DNA of 64,000 nt from Nitratireductor sp. GISD-1A_MAKvit (lineage in GTDB: Bacteria > Pseudomonadota > Alphaproteobacteria > Rhizobiales > Rhizobiaceae). The translations under genes and the position numbers were made by a program. Below are positions 18,367-26,788 of this stretch, in pieces. The stretch's first letter is position 1; the number at the start of each line of letters is the position of its first letter. A model generated the notes under the pieces. That model did no database searches and was not told the origin of the DNA. It was given only the letters and a program-made list of their open reading frames with translations. The stretch is from positions 207,705 to 271,704 of the forward strand of contig NZ_CP161919.1 in the NCBI RefSeq assembly GCF_040819555.1, given 5' to 3'.

Positions 18367-18933
18367 TCAGGCAAGACCCGGCAACACGGCTTTCACACCT
18401 GCGACGATCATCTCCACGGCGATGGCGAGCAGGATCATGCCCATGAGCCGCGAGGTGATCACGCTCATGGTTTCGCTCAACACGCGTCCGATGAATGATG
18501 CAAAGAAAAACACGACGAAAAGAACCGCCAGAATAATGGCAACAACAGCGCCCACAGCCAGTGTTGCCTCCAACCCGCCGGCATGTCCCGCATAGATGAT
18601 CAGCGTTGCGATGGTGCCGGGACCAACGATCATCGGAAAGGCGATCGGATAGAAGGCGAGCCCCGAAAGATCGCCCATGTGATCCTGCTCGCTCTCGGTT
18701 CCGTGGTGGGAAGAAAAACCGCTCCCATTCAGCATCGACCAGGCGATGTGCGCCAGAACGATGCCGCCGGCGACGCGAAACTCATCCACCGTAATGCCGA
18801 AGAACCCGATGATCGCCTGTCCGGCAAACAGGATGACCGCGCACATGATGGCCGAGAAAATCGCAATTCTGAATGCGAGAAAGCGCTGCTGCTGAACCGT
18901 GAAACCTGCCGTCAGCGCCAGAAAGATCGGCAG
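18367..18933 (-). pseudogene. MarC-family membrane protein, N-terminus removed by the island
   Basis: From 18933 down, the minus strand reads LPIFLALTAGFTVQQQRFLAF and continues as a normal MarC/YhgN protein to PGLA, 188 residues. A complete protein is about 205-210 residues. The first 20-odd residues (usually ending DPxGNLPIF or similar) are missing because the Tn3-like terminal repeat starts at 18936. The only in-frame ATG is at 18846, inside the second helix, so a working protein is unlikely. Joining the sequence beyond the right end of the island does not restore a hydrophobic MarC start. It converges with the phosphatidyltransferase gene, with a 7-bp gap. Confidence 0.8.
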
Positions 18934-18935
18934 GT

Positions 18936-18973
18936 GGGGGCGGCTCCGGGAAAGTGCAAAATTTTACGCTAAG
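18936..18973 (+). repeat. Left terminal inverted repeat of Tn3 type
   Basis: 38 bp beginning GGGGGCGGCTCCGGG and ending TTTTACGCTAAG, outer end to the left. It matches the right repeat (26625-26662, read on the minus strand) at 32 of 38 positions, including the unbroken core CGGCTCCGGGAAAGTGC. The stop codon of the last operon gene (18969-18971) lies inside this repeat. Confidence 0.75.
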
Positions 18974-19655
18974 TCGAGAACGAGTTTTCCATAGTCTCCA
19001 GGGTTGCCTTTTCCCACACTTCCGCAACGGTGTCGTCTAGAGCGTTGCAGGCGTCAACCTTGATGGTATTTGCGGATAGCCTCATTTCCCGCTCAAGGAT
19101 GGCACTGACTTGCCCCTGATAGTCAATAAAGGACGTTCGGACGTCTTGCAGTACAAAGCCGTTAAAGGCTCCACTTTCAGATCGTTTCAGCATTTTCTTC
19201 CTCTGAAACGCAATTGCCGGGTCAATATCGAGCAGAACGTTGATGTCGGGCTGCCGGATCGGCCGGTAGGCGGCTCTTAGATAGTCGATATCGGCATTCT
19301 CTTTCAGCGCAAATCGAGCCAGATATTTGTAGTAATAGCCATCACATAGAATGATATCGGCGCGGCTGTTGCGGATTTCCTCTGAAATCGCATGATACCA
19401 ACAGCAGATCAGATGATACCAGTGATTGTCTCCCAAGCTCTCGATCGGGTCGTCATCGGAGTAATCCCAAAGGACACCCTTAATGGCGGACAGATGATGC
19501 TGCTTATACGGTGTCAGCCCATAAAGGTTGCGTTTTTCAAGCAGCTTGATCGACTGGTTCTCTGCCAAGCCCTTCTGATGGAGCGCCGCTGCCAGGGTGG
19601 ATTTTCCTGCCCCGTCGATACCCTCGATATTCACGAATACGGGTTGTTTGTGCAT
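18969..19655 (-). CDS. Thymidylate-kinase-like P-loop kinase
   Basis: A 228-residue P-loop protein. EGIDGAGKST (residues 11-20) is a Walker A of the TMP-kinase type, and the strand DINVLLDIDPAIAFQRKK is the Asp-Pro-x-x-Ala-x-x-Arg region near the lid of that family. It probably phosphorylates a nucleotide, nucleoside or small sugar-like substrate; the overall sequence is divergent, so it is not the housekeeping Tmk. The start is taken at ATG 19655, 4 bp after the radical SAM stop; an extension to 19724 would overlap that gene. It is the last gene of the island operon, ending inside the terminal repeat. Confidence 0.75.
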   Translation of the reverse strand: MHKQPVFVNIEGIDGAGKSTLAAALHQKGLAENQSIKLLEKRNLYGLTPYKQHHLSAIKGVLWDYSDDDPIESLGDNHWYHLICCWYHAISEEIRNSRADIILCDGYYYKYLARFALKENADIDYLRAAYRPIRQPDINVLLDIDPAIAFQRKKMLKRSESGAFNGFVLQDVRTSFIDYQGQVSAILEREMRLSANTIKVDACNALDDTVAEVWEKATLETMENSFST

Positions 19656-19659
19656 AGTC

Positions 19660-20841
19660 TTACACGACCTCTGTCGTACGCTTTTCGTATTTTGCGGCTT
19701 CATAGGCTTCTGTATCGATTGCATTGCGACCGGAGTTGGGAAGGAACGGTGTGGCCCCCGGCACCCGATGATACACTTTCGTCAGTTCCTCCAGTGCCGC
19801 GCGGATGAAATCCTGCGTGGGACGCACTAGATTCTCAAGCGTCGTACCGGGGTCCGGATGAAAAATGTTGACCGCCGGAATGACGCCCATGGCGCCATAA
19901 TATTCAAAGCCTCGTGACAGACTGTCGATGCTTTCGAAGCCCGCTATCAGTCCCGCATGTACCTTACCCACGCCCAGCGCATCGATCGCCCGGAGGAAGG
20001 ACCGCTCATAGCCGGCACGGCCAAAATCTTCGGCCTTTCCCTGGCAGATCAGGTGCATCAGCGCCTCATCATAGATTTCTGGATCGAACACGATTTTGTC
20101 GATAAGGCCCTTGGCTTCATCGATCAGACAGGTTGTAACCGGCGGCATGGTGATCAGGTGAATGGTCAGGCCCAGCCGGTCGCATGTTTCGCGTATCTCT
20201 TCGACAATGCGGATGTGATTGAGAAACCCATTGTCATGATTTTTCAGGTTGCCGCCGTTCAGCATCACCTTGTTGAAGGTGCCAGGATCCAGTTCTGCGA
20301 TACGTTCGATTGCCTCACGCACATCCTGCGGCTTGATGAAGTGAGAAATGTCCTTCTTGAGCGTCTTCCTTGTATCCTTCAACGAACAGAAGTGGCACTC
20401 GGTGCCCGCTGCGAAATAATAACATACCCCTGGAGTGAAGAATCCCAGCGTGGACCGGCCATAGACGGTCGCATAATGCTGAACCGGCTGGCCGTTCGAC
20501 ATACTGGCGTTGTAAAAACGGGGTGTTTCCGTAAAACTGACCTCATATTCGCCGCCCTCTTCGGTCACGGCAAGATACCGGTTCCCCTCGCAGACCAGCC
20601 TGACCTGGCCTCGCGCGCTGTAATTGACCGCGATGGCAAACGGGCCGACGGAAAATTCCGGGGGCACTTTCTGTGATTTGAGATCGGCAGGCAGCCGGTC
20701 GCTGTTGCCATAGGCACGCCGCTTGCCGATGGCGTTGCTGTTGGAGGCATACTGCTTCAGGAAGGGCGCATCATAATACACCCCATCGGCCAAGCTTTGA
20801 ATTTTCAGGTCGATAGCGTCATGGATTCCAGCTGTACTCAT
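19660..20841 (-). CDS. Radical SAM enzyme with CX8CX2C cluster motif
   Basis: A 393-residue protein. Cys140, Cys149 and Cys152 lie in CYYFAAGTECHFC, a CX8CX2C version of the radical SAM motif instead of the usual CX3CX2C. After it come the strand NKVMLNGGNL (glycine-rich SAM-contact region) and segments such as LITMPPVTT and HAGLIAGFES that fit the TIM-barrel core. The first ~130 residues form a separate beta-rich region with no recognised domain. It probably modifies the island's peptide or a precursor of its decoration by radical chemistry. It overlaps the IMPase-like gene by 23 bp, so translation is coupled. Confidence 0.8.
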   Translation of the reverse strand: MSTAGIHDAIDLKIQSLADGVYYDAPFLKQYASNSNAIGKRRAYGNSDRLPADLKSQKVPPEFSVGPFAIAVNYSARGQVRLVCEGNRYLAVTEEGGEYEVSFTETPRFYNASMSNGQPVQHYATVYGRSTLGFFTPGVCYYFAAGTECHFCSLKDTRKTLKKDISHFIKPQDVREAIERIAELDPGTFNKVMLNGGNLKNHDNGFLNHIRIVEEIRETCDRLGLTIHLITMPPVTTCLIDEAKGLIDKIVFDPEIYDEALMHLICQGKAEDFGRAGYERSFLRAIDALGVGKVHAGLIAGFESIDSLSRGFEYYGAMGVIPAVNIFHPDPGTTLENLVRPTQDFIRAALEELTKVYHRVPGATPFLPNSGRNAIDTEAYEAAKYEKRTTEVV

Positions 20842-21577
20842 CTAAATATACCTCTTGAGAAGCGGCTATCAGGCGACGAGGGCGAAGCCAGTCTGGATCG
20901 GCTCCACTGAGAGGATCGACCGGGCAGTCGTAGTGATAGTGTCCACCCGCTGCGGTCAGAATGTACAATGCCGCCGCAATGTCACATTGCTTCTCATAGC
21001 CCGTTTGGTCGACGAATGCGTCCAGAGCGCCCTGTGCGACCAGGCACAATTCAATGGACGAACAGGAGATGGTCCGGATCTTTTCAGGGTAGTTGCCTCC
21101 GGAAAGAAACTGGCGCTTGAAGACGGATATAGCCCTGTCTGGCGGCGGAACGGGCGCGCGCACTTTGATTTCGTCCATCCCGAAAGGTGTAGACCGGTAG
21201 GCCCTGCCCTCAAGGGCCAGATAGAGCGTCGCCCACTCGGGAACGAAGACCATCGAACAACTGACCCGCCCCAGGTCGTATTGCGCAATGCAGACGGAAT
21301 AATAGGGAAGCCCACGCTCTCGGTTATGACTGCCGTCGACAGGATCGATCAGGAACGCGGTTACGCCTTCCGCTGTTTGAAAGGGCGGGCTCGTCTCTTC
21401 ACCGAAGCACATGGCATTCGGAAGAACGTTTTTTATGATCTCAAACAAGACCCTTTCAATATCGCTGTCGGACTGATCTTTCAGATCCTGCCAAGTCTGC
21501 ACGACCTCTCGCGTGATTTGTAGAAAATACCGAGATCTTCTACCAGTGGCTGAAGGAATCTCAGTGTTTATCATCAT
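20819..21577 (-). CDS. Inositol-monophosphatase-family phosphatase
   Basis: A 252-residue protein of the Mg2+-dependent sugar-phosphatase superfamily. GEE at residues 59-61, FLIDPVDGSHN (Asp78, Asp81, Ser83) and a C-terminal KQCDIAAAL with Asp199 give the usual metal ligands; the common W-D-x-A-A-G reads QCDIAAA here. Members dephosphorylate inositol phosphates, PAP, fructose-1,6-bisphosphate or related compounds. In this operon it could strip phosphate from an intermediate made by the kinase or phosphoribosyltransferase-like protein. The start overlaps the preceding gene by 17 bp and its end overlaps the radical SAM gene. Confidence 0.8.
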   Translation of the reverse strand: MMINTEIPSATGRRSRYFLQITREVVQTWQDLKDQSDSDIERVLFEIIKNVLPNAMCFGEETSPPFQTAEGVTAFLIDPVDGSHNRERGLPYYSVCIAQYDLGRVSCSMVFVPEWATLYLALEGRAYRSTPFGMDEIKVRAPVPPPDRAISVFKRQFLSGGNYPEKIRTISCSSIELCLVAQGALDAFVDQTGYEKQCDIAAALYILTAAGGHYHYDCPVDPLSGADPDWLRPRRLIAASQEVYLDEYSWNP

Positions 21578-22592
21578 GGTCTTCCAGCAGTAATTCCGTG
21601 TGCCAATCCAAGGGCGAATAGCGCCGTTCGGACAGCCGGATCAGGCGCCCCGCATAGACGCAGTAATCGAGACGGTTCACCGCTTCGAAGGATTTCGGGA
21701 ACAGGCCGACTGTGACGATCTGCGCCCCGGGACCGAGGCGCTCTTCGATCATCTCCCGCGCCCTAAGAATGGACCCGCCCGTATAGGCGATATCAATGAT
21801 GACGGTGGGCTTGGCCCGGTCCAGCTCACCAGTCTGTATCATGTCGACGTCTCGGCGCCTGAACAGCTCATAGGCATCGTTCTGTCGATGAACTTCAAAG
21901 AATGCAGCCGGAAACAACCCGGTTGAATTGATCATACTCAAATAGAAACGCAGACCCGAATTCAATATAAATACAAAATTGTGCCCAAGATCTCTGATCT
22001 TCTGCCAAACGGCATGATTTGCATAAACAGTCTTCAGGTTGAAAACGCTTACGTATTTTCGGAACTCTTCAATGTAGTAAGGTGCCAGCTCTCCGCAGAT
22101 TTTGTGATATTCACTCAGGGTTTGCGAATAGAGGGAATCCATACTGCGGCTTTTTGCGATCCCCCGTGAACAAAAGGGATTGTGGACCTGAAGACGCTTT
22201 TCCAGGCCGAACAGCTTGAGGGCGCGTTCCTGCACTCTCTGCCCTTCCTTCTGCAGGGATTCCTGATCCTGCCCGTAGAGGGCGATTTCGGTTTTGAGGC
22301 CGGAACCGGTGATGATCCGGGAGCGCAGTTCAGCGCTTTCTGCTTCCAGCGCCTCCCGGATCAGGTCGTGATAGAGCCGGATATCCTCGGACGATAGCAG
22401 CGAAATCAGCTGAGAAGGATTGGACAGGTCACTCAGCATGAATTCCGGCTTGCGCAAAGTGAACTTCACGGCCTGTATGGAGTAGCCGGATTGAACCGCC
22501 TCCAGGCAATCCGACGCCCTTTCCAGGATAACCCCGCCCAGTGTGCGCGCATTGTGCGCGGTGCTCATTAGTGTGATTTCTTGGAAAGTCAT
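21561..22592 (-). CDS. Phosphoribosyltransferase-like protein
   Basis: A 343-residue protein whose C-terminal third has a PRPP-binding loop, TVIIDIAYTGGSI at residues 263-275, the hallmark of type I phosphoribosyltransferases. The N-terminal 200 residues are mixed alpha-helical and unrecognised; LHNPFCSRG-like and CGELAPYYIEEF stretches are distinctive. The start at 22592 has GGAGGAAG just upstream. Possible roles are adding or removing a ribose-phosphate unit, or ligand-binding regulation. In this operon an enzymatic role next to the NTase, kinase and phosphatase is more likely. It overlaps the MFS gene by 4 bp. Confidence 0.65.
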   Translation of the reverse strand: MTFQEITLMSTAHNARTLGGVILERASDCLEAVQSGYSIQAVKFTLRKPEFMLSDLSNPSQLISLLSSEDIRLYHDLIREALEAESAELRSRIITGSGLKTEIALYGQDQESLQKEGQRVQERALKLFGLEKRLQVHNPFCSRGIAKSRSMDSLYSQTLSEYHKICGELAPYYIEEFRKYVSVFNLKTVYANHAVWQKIRDLGHNFVFILNSGLRFYLSMINSTGLFPAAFFEVHRQNDAYELFRRRDVDMIQTGELDRAKPTVIIDIAYTGGSILRAREMIEERLGPGAQIVTVGLFPKSFEAVNRLDYCVYAGRLIRLSERRYSPLDWHTELLLEDHDDKH

Positions 22593-23824
22593 CGCGTGCC
22601 GCTTCCTCCAGGCGAGCGCAAAATGCGGGTTTGACAGGAAACGTAGTACAATGCGCCAAGTATGCAGGCGGTCGCCATGCAGGCAGTTTGTATACCGGTA
22701 TTGGCCGCAAGCGAGCCGACGACTGGCAGCATGACCAGCGAGGGTATCTTATACGCGGCCCCGGTGACGCCCGCGATGGTACCGATATTTTCGGGGCGGC
22801 TACGCTGCAGACGGATATCCCAGGCTAGGACGACCGTTATGCTGCCAAGGACACCGATGCACGCTATCGCAGCCAGCGAAAAGACGCTGGAGATCAGCAA
22901 CGCCTGTACCATCATGAGAACGATACTCGCAGACATGGTAAAGCTGAGGGCCTTTGTGGCTATATATTTCTGCTTCACTTTACCCGCGATGAGTGACCCC
23001 AGCAGCGCCCCAGCGCCCATGGCAATCAGAGGAGTTCCAGGCAAAAGGTTATCGGAAGCGAAAGCTCCTAGACTGTATTCGTTGAAGGCGGCGAGACCCG
23101 CATAGCCGCTGACGAACACAATGACATTCACCAGAGCGACGACGATGACGGAATGGGCCAGTTCCCGATCATTGGTAATGAAGGAGAATGCCGCGAGCAG
23201 CGTTTCAGGAATGCTTTGCCGTTTGGCCCGAGATTCCTTCTTTTTGACAGCTTCGCCGGTTCCGCGCGATAGCGCTATTCCGAACAAAAGGACTCCACAC
23301 AGAAGAATGGAGGTTCCGCCCGACCAAGAGGAAATCGTCCCCGACCCATCGTTCTCAAGTAACCCGGCGGCGAGTGGAGCTACGATTGGAACAGCCTGCA
23401 TTATCCAGACGACTGAAGCATGATATGCAGTATATTCTGCACTGGGAACAAGATACTTGGAGCTGGCGATTCTAACGTTTGCGGATAGATAGGCCAGCAC
23501 AGACAAAACGACCAAAACCAACAGTCGCCATTCGGTCGGATAATAGTCGGCTTGCAGGATTGCCAGCGGCGCCCACAGAGCGACGGCAATAAGCGGCGCT
23601 ATATACCACCTGATTGAAATTCTGTCCGTAAATACACCCACGATCGGGCCCAGCATAACCGGGCCAACCAGCGCAAGCGCGGGGATAAGCATCACCAAAA
23701 ATGGCCCGTTGTCCTGCGCAAGAGAATCCAGCGCCAAGTAAATTTTAACCGTATCTATGGCAATGTATTCAATCGCCATGGATACGATGATAAGGGCGGT
23801 AGTGATCGAAAACTTATTTCCCAT
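22589..23824 (-). CDS. MFS transporter, probable product exporter
   Basis: A 411-residue protein with about 12 hydrophobic segments in two halves separated by a basic cytoplasmic loop (AVKKKESRAKRQ near residue 200). The motif-A-like loop GVFTDRISIRW follows the second helix. Length and layout fit the major facilitator superfamily. Its position in the middle of a biosynthetic operon suggests it exports the finished compound and so may also give self-protection. It overlaps the upstream nucleotidyltransferase-like gene by 11 bp and the downstream gene by 4 bp. Confidence 0.85.
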   Translation of the reverse strand: MGNKFSITTALIIVSMAIEYIAIDTVKIYLALDSLAQDNGPFLVMLIPALALVGPVMLGPIVGVFTDRISIRWYIAPLIAVALWAPLAILQADYYPTEWRLLVLVVLSVLAYLSANVRIASSKYLVPSAEYTAYHASVVWIMQAVPIVAPLAAGLLENDGSGTISSWSGGTSILLCGVLLFGIALSRGTGEAVKKKESRAKRQSIPETLLAAFSFITNDRELAHSVIVVALVNVIVFVSGYAGLAAFNEYSLGAFASDNLLPGTPLIAMGAGALLGSLIAGKVKQKYIATKALSFTMSASIVLMMVQALLISSVFSLAAIACIGVLGSITVVLAWDIRLQRSRPENIGTIAGVTGAAYKIPSLVMLPVVGSLAANTGIQTACMATACILGALYYVSCQTRILRSPGGSGTR

Positions 23825-24806
23825 GATCTGCCATGAGAGATTCTAGCGCTTCATAAACCTCGTCGAACGTGAAGCCCGCAACGCCCTGCGTGGCGTCGAC
23901 GTTTTGCAGCTGCGCCATATATTCTTCGTATTTCTCCTCGTTGATGAAATGCCGGTGGTATTCGATATACATTTTCAGGAACGGGAGTAGATCATGCTTC
24001 CCCGTGCCGTCGACAATCCGGGTGGTGTCCACCAAGGAAAGCATGTGAGGAACGATAAGGAGAAGATTCGGCTTAAGGTATCCGAGTTTTAAAGAATAGA
24101 ATAAGCGCACCAGCGTCGTTGTGGCATTATGCTCGGGCACCTGTATGCGTAAGTCGCCGTGAGGACGCGTACAGGCATCCATGTCTATGGGATCACCGCC
24201 ATAGGCATGTACTGCGTCAACGCCGTAAAGAAGGTATGGCTCGCCTGCCTTGGGGACATTGAGGGGCTGATGCTCACCGGCAAGTCGAAGAATGTAACTT
24301 TGGGTTCTGGGATCGAACTGCGACAGTGAAAAGGGTATGACAATGCTTCCGACAAGTGTCTTGTCAGGCACTTCCATGATATCCTCATCAACCTCAATTA
24401 GCGCGCCTGTTTCGGCGTCGATGACGCGGCGGTAATGGCCCCGCCTCTCAAGGTCCCTCACAAGGCTTTCGGTGTTCTCTTGTTCCAGAAGAATATCGAT
24501 GTCGCACTTGTATCCATTGAGCCCTGTACGTTGATCAAGCAGCCCCCAGGCCAAAGACTGCCCAACTGCTGCCGGATACCGTCCCTCTATGGCGCTGCTG
24601 ATTTCCTGTAGCGCGAAAAGCTGTTGGTCTCGCAGCCATCTATGTAATCGCAACAATCCAAGACGCTCATGAACTGATCCCTCCAAAACATAGTCGATCC
24701 CGTTCAGGATGAACCCGTCGATTTCCGAGGGTGTAAAGGTTTGTACGGCGTCAACCCGACCGGAATAGGCCCTGAAGCAGCGCGTATGAGAAGCGGAAGC
24801 GCTCAA
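23814..24806 (-). CDS. Nucleotidyltransferase-like protein
   Basis: A 330-residue soluble protein. Around residues 79-107 the run AAVGQSLAWGLLD followed by KCDIDILLE (Asp102-x-Asp104) resembles the active site of pol-beta-type nucleotidyltransferases, including the poorly studied NTP_transf_5 group, in which a D-x-D pair binds metal and nucleotide. Later helices (FLKMYIEYHRHFINEEKYEEY, quoted in part) are typical of the C-terminal helical part. It might transfer a nucleoside monophosphate to the peptide or to a small molecule. The assignment is by pattern only. It overlaps the genes on both sides (4 and 11 bp). Confidence 0.55.
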   Translation of the reverse strand: MSASASHTRCFRAYSGRVDAVQTFTPSEIDGFILNGIDYVLEGSVHERLGLLRLHRWLRDQQLFALQEISSAIEGRYPAAVGQSLAWGLLDQRTGLNGYKCDIDILLEQENTESLVRDLERRGHYRRVIDAETGALIEVDEDIMEVPDKTLVGSIVIPFSLSQFDPRTQSYILRLAGEHQPLNVPKAGEPYLLYGVDAVHAYGGDPIDMDACTRPHGDLRIQVPEHNATTTLVRLFYSLKLGYLKPNLLLIVPHMLSLVDTTRIVDGTGKHDLLPFLKMYIEYHRHFINEEKYEEYMAQLQNVDATQGVAGFTFDEVYEALESLMADHGK

Positions 24807-25516
24807 TAGGTTTTTGATATACGACGTTGTTTACGGGCATAACTTCCCATTTCACCCTTGTTTCTGTCTCGAAAGCAGGTTTCCCAGGTTGACCAAAATT
24901 CATGGTCCAACACATCGAGCTCAACTGTGCTGCCCGTTACTTCGCTCTTTGCAAGAACGCTGGTGGGGAGCGGGACAATCTGTAAGAGGGGGCGGTGTGT
25001 AGGAAATGAAATTGGTACGTCTTGTTTGGTCAGGCGGATATTCGTCGCCAGGGGGGATAGGAACCAACTGCTATCGAGTATGGCCTCGAAATACTGGTAA
25101 TGTCCGGACAGTGGCATGTTTATTGGCCCGCGAACATGATGACAGATGCCTTCCTGCCCATGGATCGCATAGCCCGTCCAAATCTGAACAATGTTACCTT
25201 CCGAGAAGAGATCAAGAAAAGACGGGTAGCAATCATGAACTTCTTCGGGTGCTATCTTAACGTAACTTGTGACGGCCTCTGCAAGATAGTAGCGATCAAG
25301 GATCGTCCAATCGTCTTCACCAATTCGAAAAACAACTTCACTGCCGGTCCACATTAGATCAAAGGAAACAGGAGGGAAGACATACCAGCCTTGCCGCGCG
25401 GCTGCAGTCAGTCCCTCACAGTATTGAAGTGCCCTTGCAGGAATGGTTCCTAACGCCGAACCATCCGCTTTTACAATATCCGGAGCATCGGGAAAAAGTC
25501 GACAAAAGCGAAACAT
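24803..25516 (-). CDS. DUF6065-like protein
   Basis: A 237-residue soluble protein with no signal peptide or membrane segment. MFRFCRLFPDAP at the start, the ARALQYCEGLTAAARQGWYVFPP stretch (quoted in part as ALQYCEGLTAAARQGWYVFP) and the two central tryptophans resemble what I remember of DUF6065 proteins, a family without known function. It is the first full-length gene after the short peptide and its attenuator, so it may be the leader-binding or first modifying protein. It overlaps the nucleotidyltransferase-like gene by 4 bp. Confidence 0.6.
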   Translation of the reverse strand: MFRFCRLFPDAPDIVKADGSALGTIPARALQYCEGLTAAARQGWYVFPPVSFDLMWTGSEVVFRIGEDDWTILDRYYLAEAVTSYVKIAPEEVHDCYPSFLDLFSEGNIVQIWTGYAIHGQEGICHHVRGPINMPLSGHYQYFEAILDSSWFLSPLATNIRLTKQDVPISFPTHRPLLQIVPLPTSVLAKSEVTGSTVELDVLDHEFWSTWETCFRDRNKGEMGSYARKQRRISKTY

Positions 25517-25525
25517 TTAAGATCC

Positions 25526-25566
25526 AAAAAACGGTCTAGTGTTAAAGTGGAAATAGCACTAGACCG
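25526..25566 (-). terminator. Intrinsic terminator/attenuator between the peptide gene and the enzyme genes
   Basis: On the minus strand a perfect 10-bp stem CGGTCTAGTG/CACTAGACCG (arms 25557-25566 and 25532-25541) with a 15-nt loop is followed directly by six T residues, a textbook rho-independent terminator. It lies 9 bp after the peptide stop codon and 10 bp before the DUF6065-like start. Partial read-through would give many copies of the peptide mRNA and fewer of the enzymes, the usual arrangement for ribosomal peptide precursors. Confidence 0.88.
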
Positions 25567-25574
25567 GGTCATTA

Positions 25575-25661
25575 TTATTTCGGCGCTTGACCGCCGTTGG
25601 CGCGAACAGGGCGTCCTTTGACAACCGCAGGGCGGCCACAAGTTACAGGCTTAAATTTCAT
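25575..25661 (-). CDS. Short peptide gene, candidate RiPP precursor (28 aa)
   Basis: A 28-codon frame starting at ATG 25661 with AAGGG (25671-25675) 9 nt upstream and ending in two tandem TAA codons (25575-25577, 25572-25574). The peptide starts MKFKPVTCGRPAVVKG and is basic (Lys2, 4, 15, 28; Arg10, 17, 20). It has a single Cys8, a repeated Gly-Arg-Pro at residues 9-11 and 16-18, and an Ala-Asn-Gly-Gly turn at 21-24 near the C-terminus. It is too short for standard gene finders. A promoter upstream, an intrinsic terminator directly downstream and an operon of modifying enzymes plus exporter all point to a precursor peptide. Which residues are modified is unknown. Confidence 0.78.
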   Translation of the reverse strand: MKFKPVTCGRPAVVKGRPVRANGGQAPK

Positions 25662-25725
25662 ATCAATGTTCCCTTTTTTTGAGTTCAAACATACCCGCTG
25701 CAATTCACGTGCAACAAGCACAGGT

Positions 25726-25754
25726 AGAATTGGACAACTCATTTCGCATGTCAA
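25726..25754 (-). promoter_or_regulatory. Sigma-70-type promoter of the island operon
   Basis: On the minus strand TTGACA (25754-25749) is a perfect -35 box, followed after 17 bp by AATTCT (25731-25726), a 3/6 match to TATAAT. The implied start is near 25718, giving a leader of about 57 nt before the peptide ATG. The -10 box is weak, so activation or an alternative start nearby remains possible. Confidence 0.55.
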
Positions 25755-26314: not shown

Positions 26315-26539
26315 CTACTGTGCAGTAAATTCGGTCCCGTTAACTCCGATGGCGTGTGTCATTTCGCGATGAAGGGCGTGTTCCCGCGTCTCACCAATCA
26401 CGATCGACCCGCCCAACGGCCGGGCTCCCTTGACGCGGACGCGATCGTCCTTGACTTCACAGACCAGCAACTCTTCGCCGCGCCAGGCAAGGCAGAGCAC
26501 TATAGACCGGACGATCTGCCGGGGCCGCCAGGTGGTCAT
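26315..26539 (-). pseudogene. Truncated NUDIX hydrolase remnant
   Basis: From ATG 26539 the frame reads IVRSIVLCLAWRGEELLVCEV and then GARPLGGSIVIGETREHALHREM, quoted in part, a clear NUDIX N-terminal half. The NUDIX box should end R-E-x-x-E-E-x-G, but here it reads REMTHAIGV, losing both catalytic glutamates, and the frame stops seven residues later after 74 codons, half the normal length. It is a decayed fragment just inside the right end of the island, not a working hydrolase. Confidence 0.65.
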
Positions 26540-26624
26540 GACTTCAAGTTCCGGCTGGCATCGTTGTGCAACTGTCTGTTGGATTGCGCGATCACCACCC
26601 GTCACTCTGCCCGAGACCCGGCCC

Positions 26625-26662
26625 TTTAGCGTAGGATTTAGCACTTTCCCGGAGCCGATCCC
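26625..26662 (-). repeat. Right terminal inverted repeat of Tn3 type
   Basis: Read on the minus strand it begins GGGATCGGCTCCGGG and ends CCTACGCTAAA. It matches the left repeat at 32 of 38 positions. If the outer edge is set at 26661 instead of 26662, the next five bases are CAGGT, identical to the five bases outside the left repeat. Confidence 0.75.
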
Positions 26663-26788
26663 AGGTTCACGAAGGGGGGCATGATCCTGCCCCGCCTGCC
26701 GATTTCGCGTCGCCCGGATCATGCCAGATGCGACTCAGTGAGTTCCCGGGCACTATGGCATCAACATGCGCCTCAGGCACCAGCGCGT

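Follow-up and report, generated by a model that had tools for sequence, protein, structure and literature searches.

A conserved peptide-DUF6065 gene pair is joined to a nucleotide-type enzyme module on a transposon-like island in Nitratireductor

We analysed a stretch of 64,000 nucleotides from Nitratireductor sp. GISD-1A_MAKvit (contig NZ_CP161919.1, positions 207,705 to 271,704; the window), which carries an island with an eight-gene operon. The operon opens with a gene for a short peptide and a gene for a DUF6065 protein, which form a conserved pair that is also present elsewhere without the phosphoribosyltransferase-fold protein (PRT) encoded further downstream. On the island this pair is fused with a separate module of PRT, an inositol-monophosphatase-family phosphatase (IMPase), a variant radical SAM protein (rSAM) and a thymidylate-kinase-like kinase (TMK). 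With moderate confidence, we favour the reading that the island makes an exported ribosomal peptide, to which DUF6065 is predicted to add a nucleotide-derived group supplied by the module. The operon layout is the ordinary one of ribosomally synthesised and post-translationally modified peptides (RiPPs). New are a candidate class enzyme, the association of DUF6065 with repeat peptides, and the way in which a transposon-like element fuses this pair with a nucleotide-type module. The operon consists of the following features:

25575-25661, minus strand: precursor peptide gene, 28 codons (MKFKPVTCGRPAVVKGRPVRANGGQAPK)
25526-25566, minus strand: hairpin (25532-25566) and T tract (25526-25531) between peptide and enzyme genes, likely an attenuator or terminator
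24803-25516, minus strand: DUF6065 protein, 237 aa, likely a peptide-modifying enzyme with a predicted dUTPase-like fold
23814-24806, minus strand: 330-aa protein without known family, nucleotidyltransferase-like (NT) by eye only; the R. hamelinense homologue is 53% identical
22589-23824, minus strand: major facilitator superfamily (MFS) transporter, likely the exporter
21561-22592, minus strand: PRT; homologues begin MSTAHN and have 335 aa
20819-21577, minus strand: IMPase
19660-20841, minus strand: rSAM, cysteines C140-x8-C149-x2-C152
18969-19724, minus strand: TMK, a P-loop kinase; start likely at 19655

A preliminary description of the window had proposed the short open reading frame (ORF) as a peptide gene, and its conservation bears this out. 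The R. hamelinense peptide is identical to that of the window at 22 of 28 residues (79%), and the peptides next to DUF6065 in two related genomes share 50% over 28 residues. The proportion of nonsynonymous differences (pN) was below that of synonymous ones (pS) throughout: 0.17 against 0.55 for the R. hamelinense gene, 0.36 against 0.86 for the gene of locus L064, and 0-0.14 against 0.29-0.65 in nine pairs among eight related peptide genes. Residues are kept while codons change, which by sequence identifies a gene conserved at the protein level; a short precursor gene of this kind beside modifying enzymes is the general hallmark of RiPPs. Three close peptide types have MKF, one Gly-Arg-Pro and a C-terminal N(G/S)G in common. 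A conserved Cys8 and a Gly-Arg-Pro repeat had also been expected; only the first Gly-Arg-Pro is shared, and the eight related peptides have Asp at position 8 and no Cys anywhere. Hairpins follow the peptide in all three other loci that were folded. For the hairpin and T tract of the window, a consensus terminator scan reported no terminator.

The match of the second gene to DUF6065, noted before by likeness, was confirmed by the PF19541 profile (45 bits, curated cut-off 26.6). By this Pfam model, DUF6065 is widespread in Alphaproteobacteria (37/289 genomes, all branches counted; L033-L061 and L171-L195 are among its loci). In the family of R. hamelinense (by inference Stappiaceae) it occurs in 14 of 87 genomes. 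Eight of these 14 have a close DUF6065, each time preceded by a peptide of the form MKFSVA(N/T)DGRP(A/S)SAQAKPAKLNGG(L/M)APK... (8/8). One locus of this family was folded and has the hairpin after the peptide; a hairpin is visible in others of these sequences. The pair stands without PRT in eight genomes, and no other operon genes were seen in the two whose surroundings were read.

More distant DUF6065 proteins (about 31-36% identical) are preceded by ORFs built of repeats in 11 of 15 loci, as judged by eye; L101-L103 are close relatives, so that the loci are partly non-independent. The units include VRLGDGLSPW (three copies), VRMGSGELPPRVAKHVKATQ (about twelve), IEIAGGMNPPRVKPVSK (about ten), (S/G)GGVAPV-like units (four) and VHIANKSPAF (three), among others. 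A repeat test with fixed rules was positive at 7/14 loci compared with 5/139 control genes; it missed L118 and L120, where repeats are visible beyond its distance limit. A later sample of 385 genomes contained four strong members of the branch, known from the first survey as weak hits and now read for the first time. All four have tandem repeats upstream of DUF6065, VRLGNMSPAFKV-like in three (one genus) and VKLGMMAPAFGKS-like in one (another genus). The classical PF19541 branch yielded no repeat peptides of this type at 25 loci: an upstream repeat ORF reached p<=0.005 in three of them (L172, L189, L191) and V[RK]xG-type units appeared in none, although the search is less sensitive there because the match starts inside the gene. 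The loci with a short or repeat ORF upstream on the same strand, including the window and R. hamelinense, make up a proposed peptide-linked branch. Our strongest new result is that a DUF6065 gene from this branch points to a peptide precursor, as far as gene neighbourhoods tell.

The predicted fold of DUF6065 is dUTPase-like. Of 27 sequences, 26-27 retain an Arg, an Asp/Glu, a Gln and a C-terminal Gly-x-Tyr, and the spacing from Arg to acid matches the dUTPase/dCTP deaminase superfamily, the motifs being assigned by eye. Unlike that superfamily, DUF6065 lacks a conserved motif I Asp, has large insertions (both by eye) and shows no significant profile similarity to it. A type I phosphoribosyltransferase (PRTase) fold was predicted for PRT; a sequence search of solved structures returned only uracil PRTases, at E 1.2-2. 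The two predicted folds lend some support to a putative nucleotide link to the peptide. We found no DUF6065 in viral contigs, and no paper on DUF6065 or PF19541 in a literature search that left most subscription journals outside.

The second half of the operon has a different distribution. Only four PRT relatives, including that of the window, were found in a set of 5.8 billion proteins. The complete set of eight genes recurs in R. hamelinense in unchanged order, with enzymes and transporter 53-78% identical. A survey with two short rSAM patterns and one genome per species gave 27 loci, a lower bound. PRT, IMPase, rSAM and TMK stand together at 17 of them: R. hamelinense, two near-identical Bacillus, ten Pseudomonas and four Photorhabdus. 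Three module genes are present at L010 and fewer at the other nine loci, several of them as fragments; in one Photorhabdus the rSAM match lies in two frames, and in another PRT is interrupted. Among 22 DUF6065 genomes searched, PRT was present in two, that of the window and R. hamelinense. The sample also contained six further members of the window's genus, all lacking DUF6065. The window and R. hamelinense thus combine two systems that, across the genomes searched, are otherwise found apart. Transporter genes are common in the module loci, the tested Photorhabdus protein being MFS; most Pseudomonas loci have a further transporter-like gene (cluster c5), and one that was tested was MATE-like below the cut-off of the model.

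At the four Photorhabdus loci, the first ORF is a conserved one of 30 aa (MNVITAQAFRPLTDDEILNYDNGLMNSSPN and variants), which lies some 77 bp upstream of the nucleotidyltransferase gene and has pN 0.04-0.08 and pS 0.11-0.44; in the one locus folded, a hairpin comes after it:

L019 6898-6990, L020 6820-6912, L021 6898-6990 and L029 6901-6993: 30-aa ORF ending in Asn

We treat this ORF as a lead, because these species are closely related and out-of-frame ORFs of the region are in many cases just as similar. If it is real, the module can act on a peptide, too.

Further loci contain variants of these genes. At L005 (an A. pusense plasmid), L022 and L023, the variant rSAM gene is paired with a larger gene of cluster c17 and PRT is absent; the c17 gene of L022 has B12-binding and weak radical SAM matches. 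By gene content, these three loci represent a different set of enzymes built around this radical SAM family. In L024, L026, L028, L030, L031 and L032 (Photorhabdus, Pseudomonas), a partial rSAM match lies beside a TMK match; with such partial genes, the cluster may decay often.

In the mechanism that we propose, attenuation at the hairpin would leave the precursor mRNA in excess, by analogy with the mcc operon. PRT, the phosphatase, rSAM and the kinase would make an unusual nucleotide or sugar-phosphate. This group would be bound by DUF6065, which would also recognise the peptide and target the Gly-rich core at its C-terminus, VRANGGQAPK, which ends in Lys; the NT protein may join or extend the group, and export would fall to the MFS protein. 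The core resembles the distant repeats (V-R-x-G-x-G-x-x-P), a likeness that is suggestive only.

Several observations weigh against this proposal. No product of the island is known. DUF6065 was found in none of the 17 genomes searched that have relatives of the second module (15 with PRT, two with an rSAM relative and no PRT). We rejected rSAM as the partner of the peptide, since its relatives occur without DUF6065; the RiPP-like reading is supported, with DUF6065 and not rSAM at its centre. No precursor peptide was detected in the Pseudomonas module loci, where the plus strand was searched. For the PRT-IMPase-rSAM-TMK half, this goes part of the way to the homologous operons without a short peptide that had been named as refuting the reading. 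As this module lacks DUF6065 in those genomes and has no peptide that could be detected in Pseudomonas, it may make a free small molecule. Scored with a core-motif matrix built from the distant repeats, the window peptide was equalled by 459 of 20000 shuffles and ranked 11th of 477 short ORFs, the R. hamelinense peptide failed, and L079 and L104 gave no support, either. Four of the 15 distant loci (L071, L079, L104, L105) have no repeat. Profile comparison by hhalign of DUF6065 (23, then 27 sequences) with 20 dUTPases and 19 dCTP deaminases gave probabilities of at most 0.4 of 100, no better than two unrelated control families, and no solved structure was found for DUF6065 by sequence. The earlier naming of NT as nucleotidyltransferase-like found no family support. 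Finally, the nearest studied nucleotidyltransferase homologue in a peptide cluster was reported to give hexoses, not nucleotides (PMC9266682). As to the Pseudomonas loci, the short ORFs that they share were rejected as precursor candidates, as they sit inside larger genes.

A rival explanation, which we regard as rather unlikely, is that one operon serves two products, with PRT, IMPase, rSAM and TMK making a free nucleoside-like molecule and the peptide and DUF6065 a separate RiPP that is never chemically joined to it. Each module is found without the other in many genomes, and the Pseudomonas loci have the module, no detectable peptide and, mostly, the c5 transporter-like gene. Against a division into two products stand the eight-gene order, which the window shares with R. 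hamelinense from another bacterial family, and the overlapping reading frames and single exporter gene in the window; the Photorhabdus loci, which lack DUF6065 and still open with a short ORF, point the same way. That the short ORF is an attenuator leader peptide that regulates the operon and is no product seems very improbable. The hairpin and T tract after the ORF are leader-like, but its residues are conserved while codons vary, it recurs with DUF6065 in unrelated surroundings, and in relatives the same position is taken by tandem-repeat ORFs of roughly 60-270 aa, which are unlike leaders.

DUF6065 itself might be a binding partner, an immunity or a regulatory protein, with the chemistry left to another island enzyme. 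At several loci, no further enzyme is obvious next to the DUF6065-peptide pair, and dUTPase-fold proteins such as phage dUTPases can also act as regulators. We consider this improbable in view of the conserved, active-site-like residues and of the MFS gene that adjoins or follows DUF6065 in several loci. The opposite extension would make DUF6065 the class enzyme of a new RiPP family: a peptide nucleotidyltransferase of dUTPase fold, in which a side chain would replace water in the attack on a nucleoside triphosphate. Most hosts would then place an ordinary nucleotide on tandem-repeat peptides, the island would add a pathway for an unusual one, and conjugates would arise without a ThiF-type enzyme; we put this forward as an unlikely but specific possibility. 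Our preference remains with the exported peptide that receives a nucleotide-derived group.

One near parallel is microcin C, whose cluster has an MFS exporter. The island shares the MFS gene and the short precursor gene and has, before the first enzyme gene, a hairpin and T tract that may act as a terminator. According to PMC6495379, microcin C has a short precursor gene, a terminator between mccA and mccB and a nucleotide on the peptide, and MccB needs the C-terminal Asn of the precursor. The island precursor differs in length (28 aa, compared with 7) and ends in Lys instead of Asn, whereas the Photorhabdus 30-aa ORF ends in Asn like microcin C precursors (PMC6495379). Pfam and NCBIfam gave no ThiF/MccB-type match among the seven proteins, as had been said before, and no class-defining RiPP enzyme, which a new class does not require.

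The lasso clusters of paeninodin and pseudomycoidin also contain a kinase, and that of pseudomycoidin a nucleotidyltransferase homologue, which acts on the phosphorylated peptide; hexoses were found and an initial nucleotidylation is possible (PMC9266682). Unlike these clusters, the island has no lasso cyclase or leader-peptidase match among its seven proteins, and its kinase is thymidylate-kinase-like. The module locus L010 encodes an NTP_transf_5 protein (PF14907, E 2.4e-9); similarity of the window NT to PF14907 or to this protein was not detectable. With radical SAM RiPPs, the island has in common an rSAM protein in one operon with a short peptide. Its rSAM differs in being of the C-x8-C-x2-C type (C140, C149 and C152 are invariant across 13 aligned sequences), in matching model NF045502, which carries no RiPP-enzyme naming, and in that most relatives found accompany PRT, IMPase and TMK. 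No paper on this combination of enzymes was found, and for dUTPase and RiPP only one on antibiotic resistance, by title. Two other candidates were dismissed: structure matches of the rSAM profile to two pentatricopeptide-repeat proteins (about 35 residues, E 2-3e-4) were judged spurious, and a defence-system reading failed as PADLOC matches were limited to the P-loop of the kinase.

The island is a mobile, transposon-like element that disrupts marC and has a Tn3-like inverted repeat at either end:

18935-18972, plus strand: left 38-bp inverted repeat, Tn3-like end, within the first codons of marC
26626-26663, minus strand: right 38-bp inverted repeat, 87% complementary to the left one
18367-18935: marC, first codons lost to the island, remainder of the gene kept

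Repeats of 38 bp are typical of Tn3-family elements. In N. rhodophyticola, marC adjoins iolB and the island is absent; compared with this genome, the left flank ends inside the marC coding start and the right flank picks up at the same point. The junctions suggest a target duplication of 4-5 bp (AGGT or CAGGT). The 28-bp inner pattern of the repeats has no further copy in the genome with up to three mismatches. A second, inner Tn3-like end at 25935-25985 matches plasmid DNA, for which 6 of 12 listed records annotate a Tn3-family transposase, so that the right part of the island holds older transposon remains. The island contains no transposase and, outside the operon, no ORF above 135 aa; it would therefore be non-autonomous. 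The 135-aa ORF (26315-26722, minus strand), upstream of the operon at the right end, has a decayed NUDIX box by eye and no Pfam support. NUDIX genes also occur in the module loci L007 and L010 (Pfam) and beside the rSAM relative in L005 (annotation).

With these results, one branch of DUF6065 can serve to predict peptide precursors, which can be traced genome by genome. The peptide and DUF6065 of the R. hamelinense family offer a two-gene test system, and the island provides a natural case of modularity, a transposon-like element on which a peptide module has come together with one of nucleotide type. Should a nucleotide indeed be attached, peptide-nucleotide conjugates such as microcin C would have a second route, independent of ThiF.

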